A stretch of 44,242 bases of DNA from a virus, in the IMG/VR virus record IMGVR_UViG_3300044630_001449, positions 1 through 44,242 of that record, one strand, 5' to 3'. Under the pieces are notes generated by a model. That model had not been told where the DNA came from and made no database searches. It saw nothing but the letters and a program-made list of their open reading frames with translations. Below, piece by piece: positions 21,601-42,331 of the stretch. Position 1 is the stretch's first letter; every line of letters starts with the position of its first letter. A program made the position numbers and the translations under genes.

Positions 21601-24600
21601 CAATTAAAGAACCAGCTGCTTCAAGACCCGACAAGACTCGGCTTCCTCCGCTTGGATTTTCATTGTAAAGATTTGCAGCATCCGCTAGAGGGAAGAATGC
21701 ACCAGCAATGGGCAAAAACTGAGTTCCAGTTTTTGCCATTGTAGCCCCTGCCCTTACAGAAGGAAGGTCCAACATGCTAGGTCTTGGTCCTACCGTTTCA
21801 TAGTTTGGATTAGTTGCTCTATTGAGCATAACTGCAGAGCCAGTCATTCCAGAACCGGTTTGTGAACCGTACAGGTTGCTATAAAACTGATTGCTAACCC
21901 AGTTCTTAGCAGCAACAAAAGGCTTTGCAACAGCGGATTTTATTTTTCCAAATAAACCTTTCTTCTGTTCTGCCATTTGTTTTTTAGCATTGACTCCAAT
22001 AACTTGCATATCCCAATCGGAAAGGTAATCAGCCTTTCTAAAATCAGCAGCAGAGGGGGTCTTTGGTTTTTCTGGAGTTTTTGGCTTTGCTATCTTCTTA
22101 CCGACTGCCTTACCAACTAAACCACCCTTAGCAAAGCCAAGAATATTATCAAGGAAAGAAAACGATTGCACAGGTTCTTGAATAAGTGGAGAATATGCAC
22201 CAAAGTTATCAAAATTTCTTGCGTTTTTTGGTTCTCTTACTCTATTCCCAAAACCATCAATCCAAACAGGTTTGCTGAAAGGCATCGTAATTTTGTTAAA
22301 CCCTCTAGGCTTATTTCTAAAATAATTAACATAAGCATCTTTAGATGTTTTAGTATTAAATGCGCCCTTGTCGGAGCCAAAATTTTTAAATGGGTCATAA
22401 CCAACTTGGTTTATATAACTCATATTCGGATTGAAGTTTTCTGGCAATGGGAATTCTTTTTCTGGAGAGCGGTACTTCTTTAATTTTTCAGGCTTTCCTT
22501 TAAATGTAACTCTTTCAAGTTTTAATAAAAGGTCTCTATTAAAAGCATGCTCACCTGTCCCAAGAGGGGGATTGGATATTGTTGCTCCAGCAGGGAAGCC
22601 AGGGCTACCAGCAGCAACTTTTCTTATCCAGCCAAAAATTGCAATTCTGTTTTTAACAACCATTTGTTGAAGCTTTGTTGCCAAGTCTGCAGTTTTAGCA
22701 AATTCAGAACCACCATAATCAAACCATGTTTTATCAGCGGTTCGCATACCTCCGCCCATCCAGCCATGAGATGTTTCTACGCGACCAAACCAATCTGGTT
22801 TTTTGCCCCAGTTTTTTCCTTGGCTCGATTCACCTTTTGCAATTGTGTCCATATAGGCTTCAGTAAAACCGCCATTATTCTGTTGCCAATTCCACTCTGC
22901 TTGTGCTGGATCTTCTTTTATTTTTTTATCGGGTGCCTTCTCAGGCGCTTTAGATTTACCACCCGTGACCATCTTTTTCGGTTTCTTAATGGCACCACCC
23001 TTTGCAAAAGAATCAATCATTCCACCATTTGCAAAAGGCCTTGGCTTATATGTTCCTTGGTTGATTTGTTGCATCATTCCCCAACCGTACTTGTTAACGG
23101 CTGAGTTTCTTACAACATATTCACCACCATGAAGAATTGCTGGTATACCTTGCTGTACTGGGCCTTCTGTTGGGCCGCCCTTTGAGTATGGCAACATACC
23201 GCCCATTTCATAAAGCTTATATCCGTCATACCCTTCACTTCTAGAACCGGTGTTATAAGCATTCCTAACCATCGTAAGAATTCTTGAATTCTTCGTTTGC
23301 TTTATTGCAGGGTTTTCTGTAAGGAATTTTTTAAACTTATTAGCGGATGAATCGACTGGGGGTTTTGTGAAAATTGTAAATGCGTCTGTAAGATAATCAA
23401 CTAATAGATTTCTATCAGCATTGCGATAATTAGCAAACATAACGCGAGCCAATTGATTTGGAGTAACTTTACCTTTTTTAAGATTATTAAAACCTGTTTC
23501 ATTACCGGTTCCTCCCCCAGTGCCAGTTCCACCAGCGCCAGCTCCAGATCCACCAGCGCCAGTTCCACCACCACCGCTACCACCGCTACTGCTAGACCCA
23601 CCCGCACCAGCAGGGTTTACAATGTCTTGATAGGCTGTATATGTCGTTAGAAGTTTGGAGAAAGCTTCACTATTTGTATCAATAACTGTTGTTAAAGTTT
23701 GTGAAAGACCTGTGTATTTTCTTGTTAAGGCATCAATACTTGCGTCAATTGTCTTGCTCCAAATCCCAGTAGGACCAAAAGGATTATTTTCAGTAAGTGT
23801 TTTACCAATTGCTGCAAGAGAAGATGTCAAAGGACCAGAAGCATTAACTCCAAGTTGACCTAATGCGCCACCAAAGGATTCTGAAAAAATTGTCCCCATA
23901 CTGTTAGCAATAGATTTTGCTCCAACAAAACCATTACCACCATCAATTAACTGATTGAGCATTGTGTTGAATTCTTCAGCAGTGGTTGGAGGGAATTGTG
24001 TAATCTTCTTTGCAGCCTCTGTAAAGGACTTAATCATTTCATCAAAGTACTTGGAAGCATTTTCTTTTGCTTCCTTGATTGAATCAATCATCACCTTACG
24101 GTTTTCTTCAGCAAGTTCCTTTACGCGCTCATCTCTAATTACACCAATACTCTTAGTATCTTCTGTGTCTTGCCTTGCCCCCGCATCGGCAATTGCTCTT
24201 GCTTCATCAATTTGCCCAGCATAAACTGCCATCGCATAATTACGTCTAGTATTAAGACGGTTAAGGGCTCTTTGCTCTTCGGCTTCTCTAAGTTTGTTTT
24301 GGTATTCTTGCTCTTTTGTAAGTTTTTCTTCAGCCTTTGCAACATCCTCGATTTTCTTAATCTGGGCATCGTAAATTGAAAGAGATGCTTCTTTTTGATC
24401 TTTCAATGAATTTGTTATAGAATCAACAACAGCAGTCATTGCATCCTTAATACGGCTTGCAATTTCTTCTTGGACTTCTTTCTTGATGTCTTTTAGCGCT
24501 TGAGCTGCTCTCTTTGCTAATTCCTTAGCGCCTTCATCAGCGCCTTCAGATAAACCTTCACCAGTTGCATTGGCAATTTGCTCTTGCATTGGGTCTGTAT

Positions 24601-27600
24601 CAACCTCAACATTATCGTCTTTCTTGCCCTTGCCGCCTAGTGTGACTTTTCCTTTTGAAGCATCAATACCGCCCTTTTTTAAACCACCAAGTTTGTTTTT
24701 GATACCCTTAGCAGATTTATCAATAAGGCCATTAACAGCACCTGTTGCTTTATCAACTGTGCTATTGACAACGCTAGTTGCTGAATCGACCATTCCTTTT
24801 GCGCCATTTACTACGCTTCTAAATTTATTATTAATACCTTTAAATTTGTCACCAATTCCAAAAGGTAGCATTGATGCGAGTTTTAATACTCCAGTTATTG
24901 GCCAAACTAGATATTCAATCATCCCTTTAGCAAGAAGGCCAATAAGGCTAACAACTCCCTTTACAAGACCACCAGCAAGGCTGACTATAACTTTAAATCC
25001 AATTGCAAAAGCATTAACAAAAAATTCAGCAGCAAAAGCTACAGCAGCCATTAAGAAAGAGAATGCTTTCTTCCAATTACCTTGGAATAGCGATACAACT
25101 GCTCCAACAATGTTTATAATCATATAAAGGTATGGCTTAATGAACTTCTCAACAATCATTTTGAAAACATTAGCTACAAACTTAAAGACTACTGCAATAC
25201 CAGAGAATGCTTTACCAAGACCTTGGACAGCACCTTCTGAGCCTTTTGCTCCGTTTCCAAAATGAGCAAACAAGTCAATAATAGGGCGGACAAGTTCAAG
25301 AACTGCATCTTTAACAGTAGTAAATGCCTCTTTAACAGTTTTAATTCCAGAAGATCCCGCTTTCTTAAAACTGTCTAGATTCTTCATTACAAGCATTACA
25401 GCAACGCCGATTGCAAGAATTATAATTCCAATACCAGAAGCGATAAGTGTTAACTTCATTATCTTCAGAGCAGCTGTCCCAAGATTTGTTGATGTTACAA
25501 AACCTTTCATCGCAGCAGACATTCTTGCAAAGAATCTTGGCGCTTCAACACCAGCAGCAGCATGCTGCATTCTTAATGCAAGCATTGCATCTTTAGCGCC
25601 TTTTACACTCTTCTTGTATCCTTCTATTGGAGCAGTTGCAAGCCCCTTGGCTGTACCGCCAAGTTCTTTTATTCTGTCGGGAGCAGCTTCTCTTGATCTT
25701 CCTACTGCTTCTGCGACTTGAGCAGCTCTTCCTTTAATTCCACCTCTGTAGATATCCGATGCTCTGTCAGCAGTAATTTCTCTGCCCTTATACATATTTT
25801 GCCCAGTGAATACATCAAGATCTAAATTTTTTCTACTAAGCGTTCTCTTGGCTAATGTTCTCTTTTCAAGAGTCTCTCTAGTATCCTCATAAGCCTGCAG
25901 AGCATCTTTCTCTCCAGTGGTCATTCTTCTAAAACGACCACTCGCTCCTCTGATACCGGCCGCTCCTGAAGTAACACCAGATGCCTGCAGAGCGACTGCC
26001 TCCTGCACCATGTCGCCTACGGACTTTGAGAATCGACCACCAGGACCTCTACCACCTGTAGTTGGATAACCTTTAGCCAACAAACTCTGTTTGATCATCT
26101 CTTCAGTTTTTCTTAGGATCTCTCTTTCATCTGCATCCATTGGCCCCATACGACCACCGGGTCCTCTTACTCCCGCAGCGCCAGACATAACCCCAGTTTT
26201 CTGAAGCTTCAAAGCAGATTTCATTTGGGATGTAAAAGAAGGTTTTGCAGCAACAGGTGCGCCAGTAATTGGGTCAATAACTGAAGTGCCAGTAATTGGA
26301 GCTAATGACTCTCTAACTGCTTTTTGAGCATTAACTTGTCTAGACAATGCCATTGGAGCAGTACTCTGCTCTTGCAATGCTCCAGTCATTAACCCAATTT
26401 TATTTGCAAGTCTGCCGACAGGGCCTTCGCCCGATGCAAGAGTTGCAAGGAATGTAGCAAACTTTCCATTTGTATTAACAACGGTATCGCCAACAACAGT
26501 TAATGGCTTAGATAGTCTAAGCATTGCTGATGAACTAGCAACAGCTTCAACTGACAATGTTTTAAGGGATGGCAAAAAGGAGAGAAGAACTTTCGCAACG
26601 CTACCCATTGCAAGTCTAAACTGACCGAAGACAAAGATAAGTGGTCCAATTGCAGCAGTTGCCCCAGCAACAAGAAGAGCAACAGTTGATATTAACTGCT
26701 TAGTTCTGCTGTCAAGACTAGACCATGCAGTAATCAACTTATTTGAAATATCTGTAATTTTTTCTATTGCAGGTCTTGCCCCTTTGATGATATCAGTAGC
26801 AAAAGCTTTAAAGTTGTTTTTAAGAATTGATATTTGTGTGTCAAGAGAACCTAATGCGACATCTAATTCTCTTTGTGCAACCTCAGCAGCGTTGGCTGCG
26901 CCTGCAAGTTGAATAAAGCTAGCTCGACCAGCTTCCGTATTAACTTGACCAATTAAGTCTACTCCTTCTGTTCTTTGAGCTTTTACAATCTCATCAGTAA
27001 CAGCTTGTCTAACTTTTCTAGCTTCTTTAACTTGCGCTAGAGTTACTCTACCAAAACCATCAATTTGCGCCGTTTCTCCCTCTTTAATCTGAGCTGTTGC
27101 AATTCTGGCAATAATTCCAATATCTTGATAACTCTTAATAAGAGGAAGGTTTGCATTAGATGACTTATTAGCCGAAATTATTGCTTGGTTTGCAAATCCT
27201 TGGAGTTTCTTTTCTGCAGACTCTAAACTTACAGTATTTGATTTAAGAACTTCATCAAAGTCTGCCATCTGAGCAAGTGCAACTTCCATTCTTGGACCTT
27301 GACGAACACCAAAAACTTTTGCAAAGAATTCCATTGCGCCTTCTTGACCCGCTGCGCTGTTCTTTAGTTCATTAAAACCATCAATAAGAGATTGAATAGC
27401 ATCAAGACCAGTACCTTTAATTGCGGTAAAGTTAGTATCATACTCTTTTGATAATCTTCTAAACAAGTCAGCATTTTGCTTTGTTGGAGCAACAAGTCTC
27501 TGCAAAGAAACTTTAATTGAGTTAGCGGATGCTCCAACTTCAAAACCAGCAGCCTTCATTGGAGCAAGCATTCCAGCAAGTTCAGTCATTGAAAGACCAA

Positions 27601-28663
27601 ATGAGGAACCAGCAGCAGCGACTTCTGGGAAAGCATCTCCCAAGTCTCTTAGAGTCAATGCAGTTACGTTTTCAACAGAGTTGAAAAGATTTAATTGAGC
27701 AGTTGCTGCGCCGATTGCAGCAATTTCTCTTTCTTCAAAGGTCATCTTTCTAGATTGACCCGACATTTGCATAGCTCGCTGAGCTTGGAAGTAAAGGCTT
27801 TGTACAAGATCTTTGGCTGCGCCAATATCCATGTCACCAAGTTTTTCAGTAACAGCAGCTAATTCAGTAATCTTTGCAATGCTCTCTTCGCTTTGGATAC
27901 CTAATTCAGCAAAGTCTCCTGCCAATCCGACTGTTAAACTCTTGGCAAGACCGAATCTATTGCTAATTTTTCCAAGAGATTTATCAAGCCTGTCATAGCG
28001 ATCAACCATTCCTTGAAGTTGCTTAGATTGCTCCTTAGTTGCCCCAACAAGGTCAACATTCATCTTCTTCGCAGCGGCCTCAAGATTTGGTGCAACATTT
28101 TCAAGAACTTTATTTAATCTTACAAATTCTTTATCAACTGACACAAGAGCTTGGAGACCGTATCTTGCAAAACCAACCATTGGGGTTGTAAGACCAATAA
28201 TAAGACTTCGACCAACGAACTGCGCATCCTTGCCAAGACGCTTCTGCTCTTGCGCTACGCTCTTTAAGTCCTCTGTAAGACCTCTTAGACGAATTCCCTT
28301 TAAAGCAGACTCATAAGCCTTAAGGTCGGAAACAGCGGCTTTTCTGAATGAGGCAGATGCTCCAGTAGCAAACTTAAACTCTGTGCCCATTCCGGCAATT
28401 TCTTTTCTTACCCTTCCAATCTCATTGGTAAGAACAGAGTTGTTTCTAGAAAGTTGATCAATTGTTTTAGCGTGAGCTTTTAATGATGAGTCAGCAGAGC
28501 CTACAGCAGCAGAGAGAGCCTTGCTTCTTGCGCTAAGGTTGTTCATTGGGGCTACAGAACCCCTTACAACAGCATTGAGCTGTTGCATAGCATTGCTAAG
28601 CTTATAAACATCCGCTACGCCCGCAGTCGCTACGGCAATTACAATATCTACATCACTAGCCAT
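18656..28663 (-). CDS. Giant tape measure protein with muralytic, ART-like and kinase-like domains
   Basis: At 3335 aa this is about a quarter of the window. Residues 1-700 are the TP901-type tape measure core ('KAAGFEVGASANSIKVSLQRL'). Hydrophobic stretches lie near 655-690, 1066-1090 and 1170-1270. A long coiled coil spans about 1400-1570 and a Gly/Ser linker about 1684-1718. The 'LHGGEYVV' element occurs near 1846 and 3238. Residues about 1925-2015 resemble the Rpf/transglycosylase-like fold (predicted catalytic E1945). Residues about 2700-2915 resemble an R-S-E ADP-ribosyltransferase: R2824, T2860-S2861-S2862, E2903-x-E2905. Residues about 2960-3100 resemble a PI3K/HipA-like kinase: K2974, D3053, D3060-N3061, D3074. 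The core role is setting tail length; the extra domains suggest delivery of effectors. The ribosome binding site is AAGAGG. Confidence 0.93.
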   Translation of the reverse strand: MASDVDIVIAVATAGVADVYKLSNAMQQLNAVVRGSVAPMNNLSARSKALSAAVGSADSSLKAHAKTIDQLSRNNSVLTNEIGRVRKEIAGMGTEFKFATGASASFRKAAVSDLKAYESALKGIRLRGLTEDLKSVAQEQKRLGKDAQFVGRSLIIGLTTPMVGFARYGLQALVSVDKEFVRLNKVLENVAPNLEAAAKKMNVDLVGATKEQSKQLQGMVDRYDRLDKSLGKISNRFGLAKSLTVGLAGDFAELGIQSEESIAKITELAAVTEKLGDMDIGAAKDLVQSLYFQAQRAMQMSGQSRKMTFEEREIAAIGAATAQLNLFNSVENVTALTLRDLGDAFPEVAAAGSSFGLSMTELAGMLAPMKAAGFEVGASANSIKVSLQRLVAPTKQNADLFRRLSKEYDTNFTAIKGTGLDAIQSLIDGFNELKNSAAGQEGAMEFFAKVFGVRQGPRMEVALAQMADFDEVLKSNTVSLESAEKKLQGFANQAIISANKSSNANLPLIKSYQDIGIIARIATAQIKEGETAQIDGFGRVTLAQVKEARKVRQAVTDEIVKAQRTEGVDLIGQVNTEAGRASFIQLAGAANAAEVAQRELDVALGSLDTQISILKNNFKAFATDIIKGARPAIEKITDISNKLITAWSSLDSRTKQLISTVALLVAGATAAIGPLIFVFGQFRLAMGSVAKVLLSFLPSLKTLSVEAVASSSAMLRLSKPLTVVGDTVVNTNGKFATFLATLASGEGPVGRLANKIGLMTGALQEQSTAPMALSRQVNAQKAVRESLAPITGTSVIDPITGAPVAAKPSFTSQMKSALKLQKTGVMSGAAGVRGPGGRMGPMDADEREILRKTEEMIKQSLLAKGYPTTGGRGPGGRFSKSVGDMVQEAVALQASGVTSGAAGIRGASGRFRRMTTGEKDALQAYEDTRETLEKRTLAKRTLSRKNLDLDVFTGQNMYKGREITADRASDIYRGGIKGRAAQVAEAVGRSREAAPDRIKELGGTAKGLATAPIEGYKKSVKGAKDAMLALRMQHAAAGVEAPRFFARMSAAMKGFVTSTNLGTAALKIMKLTLIASGIGIIILAIGVAVMLVMKNLDSFKKAGSSGIKTVKEAFTTVKDAVLELVRPIIDLFAHFGNGAKGSEGAVQGLGKAFSGIAVVFKFVANVFKMIVEKFIKPYLYMIINIVGAVVSLFQGNWKKAFSFLMAAVAFAAEFFVNAFAIGFKVIVSLAGGLVKGVVSLIGLLAKGMIEYLVWPITGVLKLASMLPFGIGDKFKGINNKFRSVVNGAKGMVDSATSVVNSTVDKATGAVNGLIDKSAKGIKNKLGGLKKGGIDASKGKVTLGGKGKKDDNVEVDTDPMQEQIANATGEGLSEGADEGAKELAKRAAQALKDIKKEVQEEIASRIKDAMTAVVDSITNSLKDQKEASLSIYDAQIKKIEDVAKAEEKLTKEQEYQNKLREAEEQRALNRLNTRRNYAMAVYAGQIDEARAIADAGARQDTEDTKSIGVIRDERVKELAEENRKVMIDSIKEAKENASKYFDEMIKSFTEAAKKITQFPPTTAEEFNTMLNQLIDGGNGFVGAKSIANSMGTIFSESFGGALGQLGVNASGPLTSSLAAIGKTLTENNPFGPTGIWSKTIDASIDALTRKYTGLSQTLTTVIDTNSEAFSKLLTTYTAYQDIVNPAGAGGSSSSGGSGGGGTGAGGSGAGAGGTGTGGGTGNETGFNNLKKGKVTPNQLARVMFANYRNADRNLLVDYLTDAFTIFTKPPVDSSANKFKKFLTENPAIKQTKNSRILTMVRNAYNTGSRSEGYDGYKLYEMGGMLPYSKGGPTEGPVQQGIPAILHGGEYVVRNSAVNKYGWGMMQQINQGTYKPRPFANGGMIDSFAKGGAIKKPKKMVTGGKSKAPEKAPDKKIKEDPAQAEWNWQQNNGGFTEAYMDTIAKGESSQGKNWGKKPDWFGRVETSHGWMGGGMRTADKTWFDYGGSEFAKTADLATKLQQMVVKNRIAIFGWIRKVAAGSPGFPAGATISNPPLGTGEHAFNRDLLLKLERVTFKGKPEKLKKYRSPEKEFPLPENFNPNMSYINQVGYDPFKNFGSDKGAFNTKTSKDAYVNYFRNKPRGFNKITMPFSKPVWIDGFGNRVREPKNARNFDNFGAYSPLIQEPVQSFSFLDNILGFAKGGLVGKAVGKKIAKPKTPEKPKTPSAADFRKADYLSDWDMQVIGVNAKKQMAEQKKGLFGKIKSAVAKPFVAAKNWVSNQFYSNLYGSQTGSGMTGSAVMLNRATNPNYETVGPRPSMLDLPSVRAGATMAKTGTQFLPIAGAFFPLADAANLYNENPSGGSRVLSGLEAAGSLIGPTSIFSPYANFSQGSKLLNTVRSIKSLPKNIKSGTRSFINNRSTITKVKSLLRDIDDARKGATKFPAWQDQVLGGPRKSMDQLNQSLPDPLFDDGPFGSIEGLTPYKRITNSRYPNIFKEISGERAPTRALGVDGWLDIPGKTPWETVKNRIQETKNLNINRFKNLNTRFKNTISKKPKIGNKLKSLPPKAKAIPKTLKDRLFEFLVPKSATILGSEGISSVVREMFYTGQYDDIMKNSILNGLSQRFPTMDMPELTKLTDIMFGNIKRISPENPAQIAETMRFNAKRVAEFEAKLAANASRSPEDALAYKTYMTNKLRAKITGNIAKSAQGRTGGFKRGMFKQGDLSFEDFMKNIVPKMDESELTKIAGGTHRDDFKIYLSYMNSLLNSPMTYQSGTKYYQDLLAQISGRSEVTDLQKAFPILKEFVNASIAGNVRLGPRINFADNFDLAKAIEIFGVKTEKDLEFVRGMNIMNTGGLKATLSRLVDVDPKIGEMLPHQTPLRTSSSPAGALGFFSRGTPDQTRGALFNITVPKGTPAYVDPKFLHETELLFPGFNFLENIRKPISAPSGASLFSTRAGFSISPTNFNFDNLTRVGEQLGSNRAGIWRDPAGIKYYIKEAKSVAHSWNEELAARLYESFGVASGQQRAVFDSSTNTPYLISQIIEDLKPIGEFDDLAIRLPRIKEGFAIDAWLGNYDAIGYNMDNLMLDALGNPIRIDPGASMFYRGTGGLKDAIPGIKFGEEVEELTQMVKPTDAHKSFQNAGKIFGDMTFVQLQDAARRLQLLPSGITSDTAMSSSFSNLLMKMIQASIPDQALAQKYFDILMARRKNILEHFGLQVPDDPGAISGSAHGWFNGGLISRANGGMIPGFGSQGVPAMLHGGEYVVNSSAVKNVGIAALQALNNMRFNTPKSPSYSGPVNGQSTSTSTTHIYVENFIGEKQWFESMMKDYNVTVAPQNQKAAGLNNTTISTYSGINRGL

Positions 28664-32559: not shown

Positions 32560-32850
32560 TCAAAACCACCAAAAATGTTTTAATATCGATAAACTTGCCA
32601 AAACCACCCAAGCGACATTGAAAAGGATGATTGTTGGAAGGGTCTTGTGTGTTGAAGTCCAAATAAGAGCAACGCTGGAAATGATGGCGAAAATATATAA
32701 CCACCAAAATTGCTTGCCGAGAAGAAGACCCGGAAAGATAATTGCAATCTTGGTAGCAAAGCCCCAAGCCTCTACTGTGTTAACACTTGTCCAGTATGAG
32801 CGATTACTCATAGTCTTGACAGCATTAATTATTTTTTGAAAAAATTCCAT
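32560..32850 (-). CDS. Small membrane protein
   Basis: A 96-aa protein with two or three predicted membrane helices: 'GFATKIAIIFPGLLLG', 'FWWLYIFAIISSVALIWTST' and 'TIILFNVAWVVLASLSIL'. A charged N-terminal segment precedes them. No family is recognised. It closes the halogenase block and overlaps the end of the upstream gene by 22 nt. Possible roles include an anchor or transporter for the pathway or an extra lysis or exclusion factor; none is demonstrated. Confidence 0.7.
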   Translation of the reverse strand: MEFFQKIINAVKTMSNRSYWTSVNTVEAWGFATKIAIIFPGLLLGKQFWWLYIFAIISSVALIWTSTHKTLPTIILFNVAWVVLASLSILKHFWWF

Positions 32851-33629
32851 CTTCTTTTCTTTTCTGCTTCTTCATCGTTCTGCATTCTAAGTTTTCTGTA
32901 AAGTTGAGCATTATCTGCTGCCGCTAAATTACCTTCACCCATACCATTACCAATATGGAATCGAGCCATGCTTTCATTACCGAAAACGATTTTTTTAGTA
33001 TTCTCGCTTCTTTTAATTGGAATCATATGCTGCATTGGTGTCCCTGCGGGGATAGTGAACTCTTTATCCGTTAGTACGGATATAACAATATGAATTTGAT
33101 TATAGAAATCGGAATGAACAATACCCGGCATTACAGCATAATTTGGGTTTGGCTCATGAAGAACAGGTAAAGCCATTAAAGAAATACCTTTTGGCGTAAA
33201 AAACCTCCAAGGACTAACGAATTTTGGATAGGTAAATTTTTCTAATTTTCTATTCTCACCAAAAGGACAACCTTCAGCACTCTCAGCTTGAAATCCTTCT
33301 ACACGAAAAGAATAATCATCGCCAAAATTATTTAGTTTGTATTCAAAACCCTTACCTGAAGCGTCAGGCCGGACTGTAACATCTGTCCACATGGGAATGA
33401 TAAAACCATACTGTAAGTAGTCAAAGGTTCCATTACATCTTCTTAAAGACATACTCTTGACTGGAAGTTTTTTCCACCAAGAAGGAAGTTGCTCTTGGCA
33501 AATATATGGAGCGACTTCCAGTATGCGGTTGTCGTTTGGAACAATCACAACTTCATTTTTTTTTGGTTTAGGAGTATCTCCTTTAAACATTGAAATTTTA
33601 TAATTGTATTTCTTTGAGCGATTTCGCAT
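32829..33629 (-). CDS. Conserved phage protein of unknown function (cyanophage-like type)
   Basis: A 266-aa soluble protein. Recognisable phrases are 'YGFIIPMWTDVTVRP', 'YPKFVSPWRFFTPKGISLMALPVLH', 'PGIVHSDFY' and 'IPAGTPMQHMIPIKRS'. The last, an I-P-A-G-T-P-x-x-x-x-I-P-x-K-R stretch, recalls a group of uncharacterised proteins I know from marine cyanophages and possibly the DUF6065 group; that link is from memory and tentative. The fold looks all-beta and cupin-like. The C-terminus is highly charged ('EEAEKKRRWNFFKK'). The start overlaps the halogenase end by 32 nt, so it is probably a partner in the same process. Confidence 0.75.
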   Translation of the reverse strand: MRNRSKKYNYKISMFKGDTPKPKKNEVVIVPNDNRILEVAPYICQEQLPSWWKKLPVKSMSLRRCNGTFDYLQYGFIIPMWTDVTVRPDASGKGFEYKLNNFGDDYSFRVEGFQAESAEGCPFGENRKLEKFTYPKFVSPWRFFTPKGISLMALPVLHEPNPNYAVMPGIVHSDFYNQIHIVISVLTDKEFTIPAGTPMQHMIPIKRSENTKKIVFGNESMARFHIGNGMGEGNLAAADNAQLYRKLRMQNDEEAEKKRRWNFFKK

Positions 33630-35061
33630 GGTCTACCTTTGCATGATCTGATTGTCTTATTTTAGCAGAATACATAGAGTTTTTTACAGCATCTCTGATG
33701 TTAAATCGATTTATAGCAAGCGAAGAGGCCTCTCTAGATAAGATCTTTTGACCTTGGGCTACATGATAAAAATGTGGAACATGAAACATTTCATAATTAC
33801 TTGTTGGTATGTCATTATGGAATGGAGGTCTTTCGCTCCACAAATCTAGTAAGTTTTGCAAATATTCTGGAACCGGTGTATTCGCTTGGTTTATCCACAT
33901 TTCAGTATCTCTTCTGTCAGACATGTAGTGGAGATAAATCATGGACAGAATATTTTCCATCATTATATTCATTTTCTTATTGAATTCATTCTGGACAGCC
34001 GTATATCCAATCTTGTAAGAGGACAAATTTTCCACCAAACACCTCATTTGTTGAATTGTACCTCCAATAGAGGATGCTTCAATTGGCTCAACAAAAGCAG
34101 AAGATAGGCCGATTGCAGCGCAGTTCTTCACCCACATCTTTTCGAGATGACCGGGGTCAAATTTAATAGTCTTTACTGGTTGAACCTCAAATCCAAGCAA
34201 CGCTGACACTTCAGCAATTGCTTGATCATCAGTGCAAAAGTTTGTGGAATAAACATAACCATTACCTCTTCTTTGCTGAGTTGGGATTTCCCAAACCCAT
34301 CCGTTCTGAATAGCCCTAGCTCTTGTGTAGGGTCTAATCTCCCCAGAAGGATCAGGTTGTGTAGGGAAAGGAATTGCCGAGTTCATCTGAAGATGGTTGG
34401 AGAAAGACTTCCACTTAGCATCACTCACCTTTGATATAAGAATACGAGCCATCCCTGATGCGTCAATCCAAAAATCAGCCTCAAGACTTTCATCATTTTC
34501 AAGTATAACTGATTCAATATGCCCATCTTCGATGTTTAAATTTGTTTTAATTATTTTGCTATCAATGAAGCAAATATTTCTTTCTTGACATAATTTTGTT
34601 AAATACTTGTTGAGAAGAGCAGTATCAAAATGATATTGGTTCACAGATTCATGGGGTCTATCAGCACGAACTTTGTTTTCTATCATTGCTCTTGATGCAA
34701 TATTTTCAGTCAATGTTTTATTATTTTCAATAAGGCCATTGTATAAACCGTAAAAATTGTAATAGCCAATGGTGCTTGCATCGCTTACACTGTGGAAGTA
34801 GTCAGGGGTATGATTTGTCCAATTTTCAAATCTAATACCGTTTTTATGGGTTGCTTGTGTTTCATTTAAAAGTTCCCCAAGGGGGATGTTGCATGCATCC
34901 ATAAACATTCTCCAATGTTCTGTTGACCCCTCACCGACACCAATAATTCCGACTTGAGATGATGAAACCACTGTGATATCCATCAAGGGGAAAGCTGAGC
35001 GTAACATTATTGCACCAACTAAACCAGCGGTGCCACTGCCAACTATTGTTATTTTGTTCAT
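33598..35061 (-). CDS. Flavin-dependent halogenase, tryptophan halogenase type
   Basis: A 487-aa FAD enzyme expected to place chlorine, bromine or iodine on an electron-rich ring using reduced FAD, oxygen and halide. The N-terminal dinucleotide motif is 'IVGSGTAGLVGA'. 'GVGEGSTEHWR' follows, then the catalytic lysine K73 in 'ATHKNGIRFENW'. The halogenase-specific W-x-W-x-I-P motif is 'WVWEIP' (255-260). The catalytic glutamate region is 'FVEPIEASSI' (E328 aligned with PrnA E346); the following serine of PrnA is alanine here (A329). Length and motifs argue for an active enzyme. A flavin reductase would have to come from the host, as none is seen. Substrate unknown: free tryptophan, a peptide or a smaller aromatic are all possible. 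Confidence 0.93.
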   Translation of the reverse strand: MNKITIVGSGTAGLVGAIMLRSAFPLMDITVVSSSQVGIIGVGEGSTEHWRMFMDACNIPLGELLNETQATHKNGIRFENWTNHTPDYFHSVSDASTIGYYNFYGLYNGLIENNKTLTENIASRAMIENKVRADRPHESVNQYHFDTALLNKYLTKLCQERNICFIDSKIIKTNLNIEDGHIESVILENDESLEADFWIDASGMARILISKVSDAKWKSFSNHLQMNSAIPFPTQPDPSGEIRPYTRARAIQNGWVWEIPTQQRRGNGYVYSTNFCTDDQAIAEVSALLGFEVQPVKTIKFDPGHLEKMWVKNCAAIGLSSAFVEPIEASSIGGTIQQMRCLVENLSSYKIGYTAVQNEFNKKMNIMMENILSMIYLHYMSDRRDTEMWINQANTPVPEYLQNLLDLWSERPPFHNDIPTSNYEMFHVPHFYHVAQGQKILSREASSLAINRFNIRDAVKNSMYSAKIRQSDHAKVDHAKSLKEIQL

Positions 35062-35078
35062 TTTTAATACCTATATTT

Positions 35079-36128
35079 CTAATTAATTTTATTATACAAA
35101 TCAATTAATTTTTCAATTTCTTCATTTGGATGAAGCGCAAAATAATCTATGACTTCTTGATAATTATTAAAATCTATACCATGCATAACGCAAAATTCAA
35201 AAATTTTTGAGGCAAGACCTTCTTTTTCTTTTGCAATAAGATCATTAGGTATTGCAAAACCATTTATATGACTATTCTTCATATTAAATAAATATGAATA
35301 CTTGCATCTATTATTAATAAATTTTTTCAGAGAGTCTGGTGTCTGTGTGTTTTCGTCTATATCATATACCTGTCTAGTTTCACCTTTAAGGTATCTGGCA
35401 ACCTTCATATCCCCCTGTGAATTGATAATATCGGCTAAAACATCTTCTGGCATCCCAATCTCATTCAGAAAATCATATGCAGCCTTAGCAATTGGCTCTT
35501 GGTTACTAAATGGAGGCTTATATACCTCAGACCATTCATAAATGGTTTTTAAAGCACCGGTAAGAGTCCTTGCGTTTGCGTTTGCTCCTTGAGAGTCTTT
35601 ATTAGGATTTTCTGTGTTATCTGTGAATGTGCATAAAAGATGACCGACCCCTGCAATATCCATAAGACTTGCCGTTCTTTTTATTGAAAGTCTGTTTGGG
35701 AGTAAATAAAATGGCTTAACACCGAGCATTCCGTAATCACATCTTACAAAACTATCTGGAATAAAATTGTAGGCGAGTGACTGATTATCTCTCGCTGGAA
35801 CTACCGATGAGTCTAGAAATGAGTAAACTACGAAAAATTCATCTATTTGTCTATCAAAATGCTCTTGAAAAGACTCATAAGATATGTTTTGAAAATTCTT
35901 TTTTTCTAACCCAGAAAAATATACATAATTATGGACTCCTGAATGAAATTTCTTAAAAGCAATAAGGGTTCCTACTTCTGTTGAAAATGTATCATAATCA
36001 TTTGCATCAATATCAACTAACCCAATTGATGTATTAAACTTGAGAATAATATCGCCATCTTCTTCTGTGAGAAAGTATGATGTGTATAAAATTGGTTCGA
36101 TTTCAGAAATATTTTTCATACGAACCAT
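35079..36128 (-). CDS. Unknown protein of the halogenase block
   Basis: A 349-aa protein that I do not recognise. The N-terminal half is beta-rich with many aromatics ('GVHNYVYFSGLEKKNF', 'VVYSFLDSSVVPARDN', 'VKPFYLLPNRLSIKR'). The C-terminal half is helical ('PIAKAAYDFLNEIGMPEDVLA', 'SLKKFINNRCKYSYLFNMKNS', 'NEEIEKLIDLYNKIN'). There is no cofactor motif, signal peptide or membrane segment. It lies 17 nt upstream of the halogenase gene and overlaps the dioxygenase stop by 13 nt, so it probably belongs to the same pathway, perhaps as a substrate-binding or carrier protein. An ATG three codons in is an alternative start. Confidence 0.8.
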   Translation of the reverse strand: MVRMKNISEIEPILYTSYFLTEEDGDIILKFNTSIGLVDIDANDYDTFSTEVGTLIAFKKFHSGVHNYVYFSGLEKKNFQNISYESFQEHFDRQIDEFFVVYSFLDSSVVPARDNQSLAYNFIPDSFVRCDYGMLGVKPFYLLPNRLSIKRTASLMDIAGVGHLLCTFTDNTENPNKDSQGANANARTLTGALKTIYEWSEVYKPPFSNQEPIAKAAYDFLNEIGMPEDVLADIINSQGDMKVARYLKGETRQVYDIDENTQTPDSLKKFINNRCKYSYLFNMKNSHINGFAIPNDLIAKEKEGLASKIFEFCVMHGIDFNNYQEVIDYFALHPNEEIEKLIDLYNKIN

Positions 36129-36715
36129 GTTACCAGACTGTACTTTACACCGCTTTTTACAGGGTGAGCTATGTGAGTGTAAGGAAAATTAGAAGGGAAA
36201 AGCACTAATGAGTTTTTATCTAATTTTATTGTTAAATCAAAATTATTAAACTCCAATTCTCCGCCGTCAAAATCATCACCAAGACAGGCAACTAGACTCA
36301 ACACTCTCCCATTCTTGGATGAATGATCATGATGAATGTGATATTCCCCTCCATCAATATATTTTAAAAGATGATAACCAGAATCTGCATTGAGATTTAA
36401 ATCAAAGCACTCTCTGTAATCCCAAATACATTCATCAATTTTAGAAAAAATATCTTCAATAAATAAATTTTGAAGACTCTTTAGATCTTCATTAATCGTG
36501 TCGGAAAAAAAGGGATCCATTGGCATCTCAAGAGATGTTCTATATTCACTAATTTTTGTCTGCTCACCATCTCCGGTGTTTGAATAAAACCAATCAATCA
36601 ATGGCCATTCTTTTTGTGTTTCTTTTTCAATCAATTCACAAAAATTTTTACTATCAAAAACATTTTTATAAACCCAAATACAGGGTGCTTTTTCTTCTTT
36701 TTCAATTGACAACAA
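36116..36715 (-). CDS. 2-oxoglutarate/Fe(II)-dependent dioxygenase
   Basis: A 199-aa enzyme of the prolyl-4-hydroxylase-like superfamily that would hydroxylate a substrate using iron, oxygen and 2-oxoglutarate. The facial triad is visible: H128 and D130 in 'EYHIHHDHSS', and H181 in 'YTHIAHPVKSGVKYSLVTW', where K191 replaces the usual arginine for 2-oxoglutarate. The core strand 'DFDGGELEF' is typical. No signal or membrane segment is present. It overlaps both neighbours by about 13 nt. Small phage dioxygenases of this kind modify nucleic acids, proteins or small molecules; location beside the halogenase suggests a shared substrate, which is inference. Confidence 0.88.
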   Translation of the reverse strand: MLSIEKEEKAPCIWVYKNVFDSKNFCELIEKETQKEWPLIDWFYSNTGDGEQTKISEYRTSLEMPMDPFFSDTINEDLKSLQNLFIEDIFSKIDECIWDYRECFDLNLNADSGYHLLKYIDGGEYHIHHDHSSKNGRVLSLVACLGDDFDGGELEFNNFDLTIKLDKNSLVLFPSNFPYTHIAHPVKSGVKYSLVTWFV

Positions 36716-37103
36716 AAGAAAACTCCTCTTCTACTTTTTCATCAACAATTATCTTACAAGAATAATTGCCATACTCTTTGCAAATATATACAAATTTTGC
36801 AATATGAGATTCTTCATACACTGGTTTAACTAACTCATTGTTAATAAATAAATTAATTTTATTCTTTATAATAATAAAGTCATTCTTATATTTAATACTT
36901 TGATGGAATCCTTTTTTAACAGAGTTTAAGAGCATAGCGCCTTTGTGCTCAGGTATTGAAACAACAGACACTTTTTCTCTATTAAATTCCAAATTTTTTG
37001 TGTAATCATTATCGCCAACAATTATTTGTAAATAATTTTTCTTAGCAAGAATGGCGGACTCTTCTAGAAACTCATCTGATGGACAATATATGACCCTATA
37101 CAT
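36702..37103 (-). CDS. Unknown protein upstream of the dioxygenase
   Basis: A 133-aa protein starting MYRVIYCPSDEFLEE. I chose this ATG because it lies one base after the upstream stop; an in-frame ATG at 37154 would overlap that gene by 50 nt. The middle has 'VSVVSIPEHKGAMLLNSVKKGFHQS' and the end alternates strands ('KFVYICKEYGNYSCKIIVDEKVEEEFSF'), consistent with an Ig- or jelly-roll-like C-terminal domain. There is no recognised motif. Base composition is visibly more AT-rich than in the structural genes, as it is across 35079-37338. Confidence 0.7.
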   Translation of the reverse strand: MYRVIYCPSDEFLEESAILAKKNYLQIIVGDNDYTKNLEFNREKVSVVSIPEHKGAMLLNSVKKGFHQSIKYKNDFIIIKNKINLFINNELVKPVYEESHIAKFVYICKEYGNYSCKIIVDEKVEEEFSFVVN

Positions 37104-37104
37104 A

Positions 37105-37338
37105 TTACTGAATCGAATCAATAATTCTTTGAATGTTTGCCATTTTTTCCGCAAGTGAGATTATGTTGGCATATGAAGAAACTTGAACTGGGTCCGTAAT
37201 TTCTGAAACATTAGGCGCTACAAAGGTTTCTGGGTCTTCCCCTAGGATAACAACTTCTCGATAATAGTGCATTTCTAGTGTGCCTAAGGCATGTTGAGCC
37301 ATTTCTATCTTTTTTTCATTTGAAAGTGTAAATTCCAT
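37105..37338 (-). CDS. Small helical protein of unknown function
   Basis: A 77-aa protein. It is mostly helical: 'SNEKKIEMAQHALGTLEMHYYREVVILG', then an acidic and proline-containing loop, then 'SYANIISLAEKMANIQRIIDSI'. It resembles the short helical proteins that follow adhesin genes in marine phages, possibly fibre chaperones, but I cannot name it. It starts 8 nt after the stop of the large adhesin gene and is followed after 1 nt by the next gene. Confidence 0.7.
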   Translation of the reverse strand: MEFTLSNEKKIEMAQHALGTLEMHYYREVVILGEDPETFVAPNVSEITDPVQVSSYANIISLAEKMANIQRIIDSIQ

Positions 37339-37346
37339 AAATCCTC

Positions 37347-39353
37347 TTATTGGTTTAATATAGTTAGTACAGTGCCTGATTGACCTGTGCCACCACCAGA
37401 TACAGTACCACCAGTTGCTGATGTCACTACTGTATTAGCGATTAAATCTGTAATAATAATTATACCACCACCACCGCCAGTTATACCACTACCGCCAGCT
37501 GTTGAAGAACCTGCTGCTCCACCAGCACCTCCGGGGTATGTGTTACTGCCTTGTGAGGAGATAGTCCCTGCATTCCTAGCTCTAAAGTGAGAGTGGTTGT
37601 TGTCAACATGGTGTCTAGGGTAATTGCGATGACCATGAGATGCGGGGATATGGTGCTTACCGTCACCGATGGCAGGTTCATGAAAGCTGTGATGAGGGAC
37701 ATCATGGGTTTGATTAAATTGCCCGCTGTAATGAGTATATTCAAATGTAAAAGCAATACCACTATGATTCCTGTGACTGTGATTATGAGGAATGCCGTTA
37801 ATAGCGAAGTATGTTCCTGTCAAACCATTAACATGAGGCGTATCATTAAAATCCCCGTAGTGGTGTGCGAAAGGGGGGTTATGTGTTCCATGATCTGCAT
37901 GCCAGTCTCCATAAACATTATTATGAGTATGATGAGTATTTCCTTGATGAACATATCGGTATGTGTAACCATGTAATCTGTTTTGTGTATATGGGACATG
38001 ACCACCATGAGGGACATTTGGTGCTGATACAGAGGCATGAGGACCGCTTGTTCCATCACCAGTTATGTAGTGAGCTGAGCCATCACTTAGATGAGTCAGT
38101 GTTGCAGTAGGAGCGGTGTTTCCAACATTACCAGTTGAGCTACTTGCTCCAACATTTGCATTTTGTCCTTGAGATAAAATCACTCCAGAACCAATGACTT
38201 GCTTAGCAACAATAAGGACAACCGCACCTCCAGCACCTCCAGCACCTCCAGCAGATGCAGGTGGAGCCGTTCCAGGACCTCCAGAGCCACCAGGAACTAG
38301 GGCATTTCTTAAAAGAGTTCCTGGACTGCCAGCCCCTCCTGGGGTTATAGTTCCGCTTGCCCCTGTTGCTCCGGCAGCACCCCCCTTGATTGAGGTAATT
38401 AGCCCAGAGGAATTAAATGCTATACCAGAAATAAGAAATTCAAGATTTGAACTATCGGATGCTGAAATTTGAGAAGCAATAAATGTATTTCCACCTGAAT
38501 TACCGCCAATAGAAACGCTTGTATTACCAGAACCAGATGCTAAACGACCAGCAAGAGTACCAGCAGAAACGGCTTGTGAAGATGTTACTCCAATATTTCC
38601 ATTAAGGGTTAAAGTATTTTTTACAAAAACTTTAAATCCATTTGTATTTAAATGAGAACCACTATTGATTGTAAGATTGTTATAATACATATCTCTAGTA
38701 AGAGATGTATTTGAGGCAATTACAACGGTGCCATCTTGACCGCCCCCATAAACAGAATCATTACCGATTCTTTGAACTGATGCCGATGGCTCAACAGAGA
38801 ACATTCTTACTGGCCTAACTGACATATTGTTAGATATTGACTTATCCTCAGGATAAGCTGAGCCATCAGACCAGTAGACAGCATAGGCATTGCTGGCATC
38901 ATACTCCGAGGAGGTGGTGTACGAATTAGTATTCCAGCCAGAAATATTGGCTGTTTTTAACTTATAGAACTCCAATACTTCATTGAGGGATGGCAAAAAC
39001 CAGTCGACAAAACCACCACCCCGGTATGATTGAGCCAAAGCTGCAGCTGAATTCGCTGTATCAACATTTCCTTGATTTATTATGTCAATAGTGTTTTGAT
39101 AACCAGTGCCAATGTTTAAACCATCAGCACCCGCAACCGCCGTTGTTCTATAGTCAACTGGTGAAGACTGAGCCCATCTTCTTATCGGATCACCAACACC
39201 ACCATTCCACTTGTAAGGAGCAACTTCAAAATATTTCCCAGTAGAGTTTCCTTCAGTTGAGGGGGTAATGAAGATAATTCCACCACCGGGACCAATATCA
39301 CCAATTGCAAATGTTCTTAATGTTTTAGTACTATATCTTTCTATGCCAGTCAT
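37347..39353 (-). CDS. Adhesin / tail fibre with DUF1566-like, glycine-rich and histidine-rich regions
   Basis: A 668-aa protein. Residues about 15-185 resemble the DUF1566/Lcl C-type lectin-like fold ('GDIGPGGGIIFITPS', 'GGGFVDWFLPSLNEVLEFYK', 'NMSVRPVRMF'). Residues about 199-265 repeat a module found in the next protein ('YGGGQDGTVVIASNTSLTRD', 'VFVKNTLTLNGNIGV'). Residues about 320-385 are Gly/Ala/Pro-rich. Residues about 430-590 hold roughly 32 histidines, many as HxH or HH ('HHTHNNVYGDWHADHGTHN', 'PHNHSHRNHS'). The end is Gly-rich again. The arrangement fits a host-binding fibre tip with a metal-stabilised shaft. It is the last fibre gene before the halogenase block. Confidence 0.8.
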   Translation of the reverse strand: MTGIERYSTKTLRTFAIGDIGPGGGIIFITPSTEGNSTGKYFEVAPYKWNGGVGDPIRRWAQSSPVDYRTTAVAGADGLNIGTGYQNTIDIINQGNVDTANSAAALAQSYRGGGFVDWFLPSLNEVLEFYKLKTANISGWNTNSYTTSSEYDASNAYAVYWSDGSAYPEDKSISNNMSVRPVRMFSVEPSASVQRIGNDSVYGGGQDGTVVIASNTSLTRDMYYNNLTINSGSHLNTNGFKVFVKNTLTLNGNIGVTSSQAVSAGTLAGRLASGSGNTSVSIGGNSGGNTFIASQISASDSSNLEFLISGIAFNSSGLITSIKGGAAGATGASGTITPGGAGSPGTLLRNALVPGGSGGPGTAPPASAGGAGGAGGAVVLIVAKQVIGSGVILSQGQNANVGASSSTGNVGNTAPTATLTHLSDGSAHYITGDGTSGPHASVSAPNVPHGGHVPYTQNRLHGYTYRYVHQGNTHHTHNNVYGDWHADHGTHNPPFAHHYGDFNDTPHVNGLTGTYFAINGIPHNHSHRNHSGIAFTFEYTHYSGQFNQTHDVPHHSFHEPAIGDGKHHIPASHGHRNYPRHHVDNNHSHFRARNAGTISSQGSNTYPGGAGGAAGSSTAGGSGITGGGGGIIIITDLIANTVVTSATGGTVSGGGTGQSGTVLTILNQ

Positions 39354-39354
39354 A

Positions 39355-40104
39355 TTAAACCAATTGAGAGTATATCACTGTACCATTAGCACAACCTGTA
39401 CCACCTGTAACATCAGTTGTAAGACCTGATGGTAGTGCTACGCTACTGGAGACAACAATAATTACTCCACCGCCTCCTCCACCACTACCAGCCAAGCCAG
39501 CAGCGTCAAAATAAGATGTAGCAGTTGCAGAGATATAACGAGATGCAATAATTAAAACTCCACCACCTGCACCGCTAGAACCACCTGCACCACCTCTTAA
39601 GAACAGTGGTGTTGTATTACTTGCATTGAGAACATATCCTTTTACAGATTGAGTTGGTTGATACCAGTAACCAGTAAGTGTTGCTGAGTTTGCCAAGTCT
39701 GGTTTCACACCAGTGCCTCCTTGTGCAACGGTTGGAGGAGTTGCAGTTTGAGATGCGCTGTTACCGCCAAGACTATTGGTAACAGCCGTGTTGGTAGCAC
39801 CGCCTCCTGAGATCGTTCCAGTTCCTGAGAAGCCAGTTGTCATCGTGTAGTTATTCGCCGTTCCAACTCCGATAGTGGAGTTGGAGTTAAGGGTTAAAAG
39901 GTTCTTTACGAAAACTCTATAACCAGCAGTGTTTAAAACAACATTAGAGTTGACAGTAAGATTGTAATAAAACTTATCAGTCGTCAATGTTGTATTAGCA
40001 GAAATTGTTACTGTCCCATCAGAGCCAGTTCCGTAAATTGGGTCTGGGGAATCGATGAATGATCCGAAAGCGTTTAAAGCAGGGAACCTAGATATACCGG
40101 CCAT
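39355..40104 (-). CDS. Glycine-rich fibre protein
   Basis: A 249-aa structural protein. Residues about 20-80 carry the beta module 'YGTGSDGTVTISANTTLTTD ... VFVKNLLTLN' shared with the next gene. After it come Gly-rich segments 'GGAGGSSGAGGGVLIIASRY' and 'GLAGSGGGGGGVIIVVSSS', which resemble the polyglycine-helix sandwiches of phage adhesin tips. There are no enzymatic motifs. The ribosome binding site is GAGGAG and the start overlaps the upstream stop by 1 nt. Confidence 0.75.
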   Translation of the reverse strand: MAGISRFPALNAFGSFIDSPDPIYGTGSDGTVTISANTTLTTDKFYYNLTVNSNVVLNTAGYRVFVKNLLTLNSNSTIGVGTANNYTMTTGFSGTGTISGGGATNTAVTNSLGGNSASQTATPPTVAQGGTGVKPDLANSATLTGYWYQPTQSVKGYVLNASNTTPLFLRGGAGGSSGAGGGVLIIASRYISATATSYFDAAGLAGSGGGGGGVIIVVSSSVALPSGLTTDVTGGTGCANGTVIYSQLV

Positions 40105-40463
40105 TATGACTCCTCAACTCCAAAAATTGTCACATTCAATGCAGAGTTCGCAGAGCATAGGAATGTAATCTGATCGCTATTTGTGCTATTAGCAGTGCTT
40201 CCATTATTAATTAAGACCATCGAGCAGTTGAAAGAAAGAGTTTCATTAGCATTAATAGTAACATTGCTTAAGATATCGTGAGTATTAGCCTCAGCAACAT
40301 TGAGGGGTTTTAAACGGATTGTTGCAGTTCTTGCAGATGCTGTTGTATTTGTAATAAGAATTTGTTTAACTATTGTAGTTGTATTAAGAGGGACAGTATA
40401 AGCAACAGCAGTAACTGTTGATATTTGTGTTGGGCCAGCTAATCTTTTCTGAATTACAGCCAT
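40104..40463 (-). CDS. Small beta-sandwich virion protein
   Basis: A 119-aa protein with regular alternating strands ('QISTVTAVAYTVPLNTTTIVKQ', 'RTATIRLKPLNVAEANTHDI', 'NALNVTIFGVEES'). This looks like a compact beta sandwich, probably a small virion decoration or fibre-linker protein. It is embedded in the fibre gene run with a GGAGG ribosome binding site and 1-nt overlaps at both ends. No family is recognised. Confidence 0.7.
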   Translation of the reverse strand: MAVIQKRLAGPTQISTVTAVAYTVPLNTTTIVKQILITNTTASARTATIRLKPLNVAEANTHDILSNVTINANETLSFNCSMVLINNGSTANSTNSDQITFLCSANSALNVTIFGVEES

Positions 40464-41221
40464 TATATAACCTCCATATAGAATCTGATCATGTTGTCAC
40501 GAACAGTATTTCTATTTACCCATAAACTACCATTATATTCTAAAATCTGTCCTGATGCTGGAGTTGTGATGGAAACATCGTGTAGTTCATCTAATTCATA
40601 CCCATTTTGAGTTGCTACATAGATTATTCCATTATTGGTAGCACGAACTACAACTCCAATAAAAACAAGGTGTTCGGGAGCAGAAGGTTTTGTTTTCGTA
40701 AACGCACCATCCTCCCCAAGCCAAAGAACATCACCTGCTGTATACCCAGTAGAAAGATCTATACCGTCAACATATCCTCTTGTAACAACCGGTCCATTTT
40801 CACTGGCTGCAATATTTGCGCCAATGACCCCAACTGTCTTTGAAGATGTTGCATCTGAATCATTATCCGCTCTCTTAACTGTCGCATGATCCCCCGTAGC
40901 TCCAAATAGATATACGCATGTACCGGTTGTTAAGGTGTTTGATTCTGCATTACGGACATATGATACAACAGGGGAATAATTATTTACCCAGTTAGTTCCA
41001 TTGTACTGTAGAGTTTGAAACTCTTCTGGTGTTGTTATTACAGTATCAGATAAACCATCTAGATCAATAGATGTGCTACCTCCAAACTCCACAATTGTGT
41101 TTGATGCATTCTTATAATAAAGTTTTCCATCAGCATAGTTAAGACCCAACTCACCGAATTCAAGGGAAGAGGGGACATTAGAAGCGGTACCTGAATTTTT
41201 AATTTTAATGGTATTAGCCAT
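40463..41221 (-). CDS. Tail fibre protein with shared N-terminal attachment module
   Basis: A 252-aa fibre. It begins 'MANTIKIKNSGTASNVPSSL', then 'ELGLNYADGKLYYKN', the same plan as the upstream fibre. Repeats of the type 'TTPEEFQTLQYNGTNWVNN' and 'TTPASGQILEYNGSLWVNR' flank a central domain (about 85-215; 'TGTCVYLFGATGDHATVKRA', 'GYTAGDVLWLGEDG'), which is common in marine phage fibres. It ends with a short beta segment. The ribosome binding site is GGAGG. Confidence 0.82.
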   Translation of the reverse strand: MANTIKIKNSGTASNVPSSLEFGELGLNYADGKLYYKNASNTIVEFGGSTSIDLDGLSDTVITTPEEFQTLQYNGTNWVNNYSPVVSYVRNAESNTLTTGTCVYLFGATGDHATVKRADNDSDATSSKTVGVIGANIAASENGPVVTRGYVDGIDLSTGYTAGDVLWLGEDGAFTKTKPSAPEHLVFIGVVVRATNNGIIYVATQNGYELDELHDVSITTPASGQILEYNGSLWVNRNTVRDNMIRFYMEVI

Positions 41222-41233
41222 TACTTCCTCCTA

Positions 41234-42331
41234 TTAGAAAGTACCGCCATCTACTGTATCACTCCAAGAAGGTACTCCAGCGACAACCTTCAAGAATTGA
41301 CCTGTTGTTCCAATTCCAAGTTTAGAAAGAGTATTCCCAGATGAAGAATAGATTAAGTCACCAGTTGTATATGAAGTTAATCCAGTACCACCAGATGTTG
41401 AAGCGATGGCTGTGCCATTCCATACACCAGTTACAATAGTGCCAAGTGTGGTCAAACTTGAGTATATGACTCCTGACCCTAAAGTTGTATTTGAAAGAAC
41501 TGAAGTTCCACCAATTTGGAATACCTTTCCAGCAAGAAGATTGAGATTCTCTGATGAAGTCCATGCATCTGTCGCATCAACCCAGTTAAATGTCTTTGTA
41601 GTTGCGCCAAGAACGGAAATACCAGCACCATCTGCCGTTGTGTCTGTCGGTGTAGCGACATTTGCAAGAACAACATTCTTATCCTCAACAACCAAAGTTG
41701 CGGTATTAAGAGTTGTTGTATTCCCATTAACAATCAAATCTCCTGTAACGGTAAGTGTATTTCCAATTGTTATATCATCTGGAAGACCAATTGTTACAGC
41801 ACCAGTCCAAGGACCAGTGCCAGTGCCAGAGACAGTAACTTCATTTGATGTTCCTGTGACTGATGTAACGGTAGCTGTTCCAAGATCGCTAATTTGTGAA
41901 CCAGTAATTGAAATCGTTGTATTACCAGCAGCAGTTAGACGACCATCTCCCTGTACAGTGAATGTAGCAACAGTGTTTGCACTGCCATAAGAGCCGACTG
42001 TGACTGCGGTATTGCCAAGAGTAACTCCAGCAATTGCATTGTCAACATAAAGTTTTGTTGCAGCATGAGTGTTTGCTGTTGGAGTAGGTACAAGAACAAG
42101 ACCATTGAAAGTCTTATTTCCTGATACTGTTTGAACACCAGAGAGGGTCAAATATGCGCCTGCACCACCAATTGCCTCTACTGTTGTAGCAGTGCCTCCT
42201 GCACCGCCTGAACCTTTACCGTAGTAAAGAACATCATCTACTTCGTTATATGCAAGCTCTGCATTCTCTAACGAACCTGGAGCCCCAGCATTACCGGAGC
42301 CTCTTCTTTTAATTCTAATTGTATTTGCCAT
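41234..42331 (-). CDS. Tail fibre protein
   Basis: A 365-aa fibre with N-terminal module 'MANTIRIKRRGSGNAGAPGS' and 'ELAYNEVDDVLYYGKG', a collar-type repeat 'TPTANTHAATKLYVDNAIAG', and long Thr/Val/Gly-rich beta-helix-like repeats ('TIGNTLTVTGDLIVNGNTTT'). These are hallmarks of trimeric phage tail fibres. There is no catalytic or S74 domain. It is preceded by GGAGG after a 12-nt gap downstream of the previous gene's stop region and overlaps the upstream stop by 1 nt. Confidence 0.82.
   Translation of the reverse strand: MANTIRIKRRGSGNAGAPGSLENAELAYNEVDDVLYYGKGSGGAGGTATTVEAIGGAGAYLTLSGVQTVSGNKTFNGLVLVPTPTANTHAATKLYVDNAIAGVTLGNTAVTVGSYGSANTVATFTVQGDGRLTAAGNTTISITGSQISDLGTATVTSVTGTSNEVTVSGTGTGPWTGAVTIGLPDDITIGNTLTVTGDLIVNGNTTTLNTATLVVEDKNVVLANVATPTDTTADGAGISVLGATTKTFNWVDATDAWTSSENLNLLAGKVFQIGGTSVLSNTTLGSGVIYSSLTTLGTIVTGVWNGTAIASTSGGTGLTSYTTGDLIYSSSGNTLSKLGIGTTGQFLKVVAGVPSWSDTVDGGTF

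Follow-up and report, generated by a model that had tools for sequence, protein, structure and literature searches.

Gene content and order of the cassette

The window (the whole stretch of DNA analysed here) is a 44-kb virus record, a fragment of 44,242 nucleotides. Its minus strand carries, from position 40463 down to 32560, genes that overlap or sit no more than 17 bases apart, in the order c2, c4, adhesin-like protein, c3, c6, 2OG-Fe(II) oxygenase, C8, flavin-dependent halogenase (FDH), C5, and c7. Genes recurring around FDH were identified by clustering 2,126 ORFs from 88 sequences, and the cassette genes were found near FDH in about 75 loci in a similar order. The FDH gene itself is located at 33598..35061 (minus strand, 487 aa).

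The 2OG-Fe(II) oxygenase (36116..36715, minus strand, 199 aa), which was found in 75 FDH loci, matched Pfam 2OG-FeII_Oxy_3 at 6.6e-14, and its HxD...H metal ligands H128, D130, and H181 are invariant in 24 members; by profile and metal ligands, this partner is a prolyl-4-hydroxylase-like (P4H-like) enzyme. Conserved protein c2 (40104..40463, minus strand, 119 aa, 71 loci) forms the upstream edge of the module and hydrophobic protein c7 (32560..32850, minus strand, 96 aa, 47 loci) the downstream edge. From its sequence, c4 (39355..40104, minus strand, 249 aa, 69 loci) has the conserved domain of the adhesin and a Gly-rich C-terminus, without the His-rich insert. The remaining small proteins are c3 (37105..37338, minus strand, 77 aa, 56 loci) and c6 (36702..37154, minus strand, 150 aa, 48 loci). 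Protein C8 (35079..36128, minus strand, 349 aa, 32 loci) matched no Pfam family, and residues R129, C130, E198, and W199 are invariant in its family. Its place beside FDH is occupied in other loci by C11, which was rejected as a homologue of C8 because there was no detectable similarity between the two.

The DUF6065-like protein C5 (32829..33629, minus strand, 266 aa, phrog_7084) overlaps the 3' end of the FDH gene and was found in 63 FDH loci; conversely, FDH lies no more than two genes from C5 in 71 of 78 C5 loci. Family profiles matched C5 weakly, with Pfam dUTPase detected in 10 of 23 members and DUF6065 in 2 of 23. The AF2 model (pLDDT 81) had a dUTPase as its best Foldseek match (E 3e-4) and suggests a dUTPase-like fold.

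When the operon was scanned for promoters and terminators, terminator-like sites were at shuffle level, and promoter-like sites were somewhat above shuffles yet scattered over both strands, so that the scan was not informative. No tRNAs were found in the 44-kb window. Elsewhere in it, a 3,335-aa ORF at 18656-28663 may encode a tape measure or another very large protein of the virion, and two adjacent tail-fibre-like proteins at 40463-42331, both beginning MANTI(K/R)IK, may be paralogues.

The halogenase and its relatives in phages

The Pfam Trp_halogenase (PF04820) profile covered residues 3-448 of the window FDH (3.6e-103), PHROG 2928 'tryptophan halogenase' matched it at 6.7e-99, and a PDB search matched 30 distinct FDH sequences, the best being BrvH (1e-58), with VirX1 at 1e-39. 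These searches agree with the halogenase call of an earlier note on this DNA, and the motifs it had listed (GxGxxG, K73, WxWxIP at 255-260, and E328) were all located at those residues, as GSGTAG from residue 8, K73, WVWEIP at W255-P260, and E328 within EPIE328. All 64 FDH homologues compared have K73, W255, and P260, and 62 of them retain E328; with catalytic residues conserved to this extent, the match is not fortuitous and the gene is not decaying. Judged by homology and active-site residues, the ORF is a real, intact FDH.

Family membership alone is no proof of activity, and the residues following E328 are A-S-S in the window FDH and A-T-S in most relatives, versus S-T-G in VirX1 and PyrH, which would fit a non-halogenating relative among the flavin monooxygenases. 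Such an enzyme is very unlikely, however, as K73, W255, P260, and almost always E328 have been kept despite strong divergence.

In enzymes of the PrnA/RebH/PyrH type, a C-terminal strap, YYHGxExYS, binds the amino-acid moiety of free L-Trp. This strap is absent from the window FDH, which has NYEMFHVPH at the position of YYHGFETYS in PyrH, and free tryptophan is therefore unlikely as its substrate. The region is instead BrvH-like, so that 'tryptophan halogenase' is only a family name for this protein. BrvH and related non-tryptophan FDHs share with the window enzyme a similar strap (RWEMFH and NYEMFH, respectively) that is not the Trp strap, and BrvH was its best single-sequence PDB match, although it belongs to a different clade; we know of no adhesin context for these enzymes. 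In the explanation favoured below, the window FDH is probably a working halogenase of the non-tryptophan type.

The opinion in the earlier note that halogenases are rare in phages was contradicted. FDH relatives were found in 69 annotated phage records and are encoded by at least 76 loci in IMG/VR, 20 of 153 surveyed cyanophages carry an FDH (PMC10452541), and DSL-LC01, a published metagenome-assembled actinophage from Dishui Lake, already has one (PMC10611076). The DSL-LC01 enzyme is a divergent relative of the window FDH. As a phage halogenase, the window gene is thus a new member of an already known family.

In a maximum-likelihood tree, the cassette FDHs grouped together in a single clade (100/100) whose sister is the P-SSM2/S-H38 type, and VirX1 fell outside this clade with PyrH, S-RIM44, and CPUG_00132. 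A phylogeny including VirX1 had been proposed in the earlier note, and close kinship between that enzyme and the window FDH is rejected by this tree. The 'tryptophan halogenases' of P-SSM2 and S-H38 (PHROG 2928) share 37-39% identity with the window FDH and have the active-site variant EPLEATS, which is of the same type as in the cassette FDHs, but they lie outside the adhesin cassette and have other neighbours.

VirX1 was identified as CPUG_00131 of cyanophage Syn10 through a full-length match to PDB 6QGM. In that phage (L078, 5995-9872), VirX1 is annotated as 'hypothetical' and comes second in a pair of neighbouring FDHs; the annotation 'tryptophan halogenase' belongs to the other member of the pair, CPUG_00132. 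Like the window FDH, VirX1 is phage-encoded and has the K, WxWxIP, and E motifs, and its locus follows tail-type genes and has a C5 homologue directly downstream (leave-one-out E 1.6e-18). It differs in its lineage (PyrH group), in the tandem FDH pair, and in that no His-rich family adhesin was seen in the locus.

The adhesin-like protein and inheritance of the cassette

The adhesin-like protein (37347..39353, minus strand, 668 aa) was recognised from its sequence and from alignment of the conserved domain (A7). Its N-terminus is Lcl_C-like, a beta-rich domain is conserved, and the variable insert, which is rich in His, is flanked by Gly-rich stretches. The Pfam Lcl_C match (4.6e-5) was under its curated cut-off, and this extra N-terminal domain of about 190 aa is missing in several relatives, for example L001 and L010. 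There was no match to PDB sequences, and the low-confidence model (pLDDT 51) had no PDB match in Foldseek; receptor binding was accordingly deduced from the sequence architecture, which points to an adhesin-like host-recognition protein. The layout resembles that of the T-even gp38 / S16 adhesins, with Gly-rich segments flanking hypervariable ones; in gp38, Gly-rich motifs flank hypervariable receptor loops (PMC12892980). The gp38 / S16 adhesins are built from a beta-helix, a polyglycine-II (PGII) sandwich, and hypervariable loops; searches with the sequence and with the low-confidence model gave no match that would confirm this kinship. No long His-rich insert has, to our knowledge, been described for gp38.

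The insert, which is the proposed substrate region (37566..38072, minus strand, adhesin aa 428-596), was delimited by composition and comprises 169 residues between two Gly-rich stretches, with 18.9% His and 6.5% Tyr. Among close adhesin relatives, insert identity is 18-77% and His is held at 13-21%. When the 1,793 proteins of at least 80 aa in the loci were counted, 68 had 12 or more His within 80 residues, and 65 of these belong to the adhesin family. In the Gly/His-rich jaw proteins of Nereis, Zn binding occurs together with halogenation and cross-linking (PMC13120676); these proteins may serve as a natural analogue of a halogenated adhesin. The same proteins would suit a reading in which the insert binds metal ions and FDH is a hypohalite-driven cross-linking or oxidising enzyme that leaves no halogen on the product; this rests purely on analogy and is highly improbable.

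An adhesin-domain scan, performed separately from FDH, identified 427 relatives, and among the best 80 of these, FDH was located 3-8 genes away in 62 of the 65 loci with enough sequence. For 15 contigs, the terminases fell into four groups without BLASTP alignment to each other. FDH distances tracked those of the adhesin (rho 0.77) and of C5 (rho 0.77); against terminase distances the correlation was not significant (rho 0.11, permutation p 0.16). Adhesin, FDH, and C5 share one history, which is independent of the terminase. A clear case, as judged from sequence identities, of module exchange between unrelated backbones is that of L048/L052 and L060, in which FDH is 72%, adhesin 77-79%, and C5 66-67% identical and the terminases are unrelated.

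WhiB, a marker of actinobacteria and actinophages, was detected in 25 of 30 contigs that bear this cassette or one closely related to it. Among the 25 is L012, with an FDH that shares 96% identity with that of the window. The assignment to an actinobacterial host is thereby well supported, and the window is likely to derive from an actinobacterial phage, as the earlier note had supposed. A sheath-bearing (myovirus) backbone was rejected, as Phage_sheath had no match in the 30 related records under conditions in which positive controls were detected; a Gp23 search gave no matches, and its controls were equally without match. Recent transfer from a bacterial genome was also rejected, since a scan of genomes of 84,980 species, which was pattern-based and could be escaped by divergent members, matched only 5 loci, and of these, 3 contigs hold most of the phage cassette. 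Two loci with cassette and adhesin (L200 and L201) are on phage-like contigs binned in a 'Gammaproteobacteria' MAG; another of its contigs, C45, has WhiB matches, a hint of mixed content.

Cassettes lacking FDH were found by a scan with a diverged adhesin and mostly retain the 2OG oxygenase and C5; in 34 whole records with such a cassette, Trp_halogenase had no match anywhere. Their inserts contain 0-10 His per 80 residues, versus 5-36 in FDH-bearing cassettes, and have more Tyr. GlcNAc transferases of family PF11397 were found in 14 of 18 FDH-less records versus 0 of 20 FDH-bearing ones (Fisher 3e-7), so that FDH and these transferases were mutually exclusive in the records compared; because FDH presence switches only about 2 times on the adhesin tree, the Fisher p-value and the Mann-Whitney p-values for FDH and His overstate the association and are not independent tests. 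Host phylum is unlikely as the cause of the correlation between FDH and His and is not its obvious source, given that WhiB is carried by FDH-less as well as FDH-bearing contigs. Among the FDH-less loci, L276, L252, L249, L258, L264, and others have at least one PF11397 transferase, 1-2 2OG oxygenases, and up to 3 copies of C5, and L147 has a match to an FkbM-type methyltransferase.

We take PF11397 to be the family of Skp1 Gnt1. Skp1 Gnt1 acts on hydroxyproline produced by a 2OG prolyl hydroxylase (PMC11570480). Through this kinship, the enzyme that is exchanged with FDH is a protein-modifying one, which fits the constant presence of the 2OG oxygenase. The Skp1 pathway (PHYa prolyl hydroxylase and Gnt1) thus resembles the FDH-less cassettes in pairing a 2OG oxygenase with a subsequent GlcNAc transferase; it differs from the window cassette in being eukaryotic and cytoplasmic, and the window has FDH and no such transferase.

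Proposed function of the cassette

Characterised FDHs act mostly on small molecules. The window FDH might accordingly be an auxiliary metabolic enzyme that halogenates a small molecule, either indole-like or phenolic or else taken from host metabolism, with an effect on the host or on competitors, its adjacency to the adhesin being incidental. In keeping with this, small aromatic compounds serve as substrates for VirX1 and other characterised FDHs (PMC8407142), and the phage FDHs of P-SSM2 and HTVC008M do not adjoin the family adhesin. We nevertheless consider it rather unlikely, since no biosynthetic genes were found near the window FDH, adhesin, FDH, and C5 are co-inherited across unrelated backbones, FDH alternates with protein-type GlcNAc transferases, and the free-tryptophan strap is missing.

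The explanation that we favour, and regard as somewhat probable, is that the cassette modifies the adhesin post-translationally and that His or Tyr residues in the insert are halogenated by FDH. The evidence counted for it comprises the synteny, the history that FDH has in common with adhesin and C5, the His-rich insert, the swap with PF11397, the missing Trp strap, and the presence of C5 after VirX1. Counted against it was the wide variation of FDH-bearing inserts in their His content; moreover, conserved gene order, taken by itself, could come from hitch-hiking within a late operon. The virion-linked position of FDH and its protein-modifying partners would also suit another protein or surface component as the target: one in the virion other than the adhesin, a protein on the host surface, or, for superinfection exclusion, the receptor of competing phages. 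This is distinctly unlikely, as the shift in composition that accompanies FDH presence was seen in the adhesin, which is the virion protein so compared.

Under adhesin modification, FDH would belong to a virion-linked set of enzymes by which the phage alters its own adhesin once this has been translated. Hydroxylation of adhesin residues, probably Pro or Asn, would fall to the 2OG-Fe(II) oxygenase. By the mechanism of the FDH family, the halogenase would take FADH2 from a host flavin reductase and, with O2 and halide, form hypohalite near K73, with E328 assisting; the halogen would then be placed on aromatic residues, His or Tyr being the likeliest, in the variable His-rich insert. C5 may help to bind or present the substrate, which is a guess. 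The adhesin as substrate, the type of residue, the halide, and an effect on host binding are points that we infer. We know of no described precedent for an enzymatically halogenated virion protein, nor of a native substrate established for VirX1 or any other phage halogenase.

In a broader and more tentative form, which is possible but held less firmly, actinophages would carry exchangeable cassettes of the halogenase or GlcNAc-transferase type on a shared core of oxygenase and DUF6065-like protein, and these would attach covalent modifications to the variable insert of the receptor-binding adhesin; in the halogenase type, halogens would be placed on His or Tyr of a His-rich insert. The new part is the cassette context, which names a concrete candidate substrate in the adjacent adhesin insert. 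If the proposal is true, phages would tune host recognition by post-translational chemistry in addition to sequence variation, and one adhesin scaffold could be paired with either halogenation or glycosylation of the hydroxyproline type.
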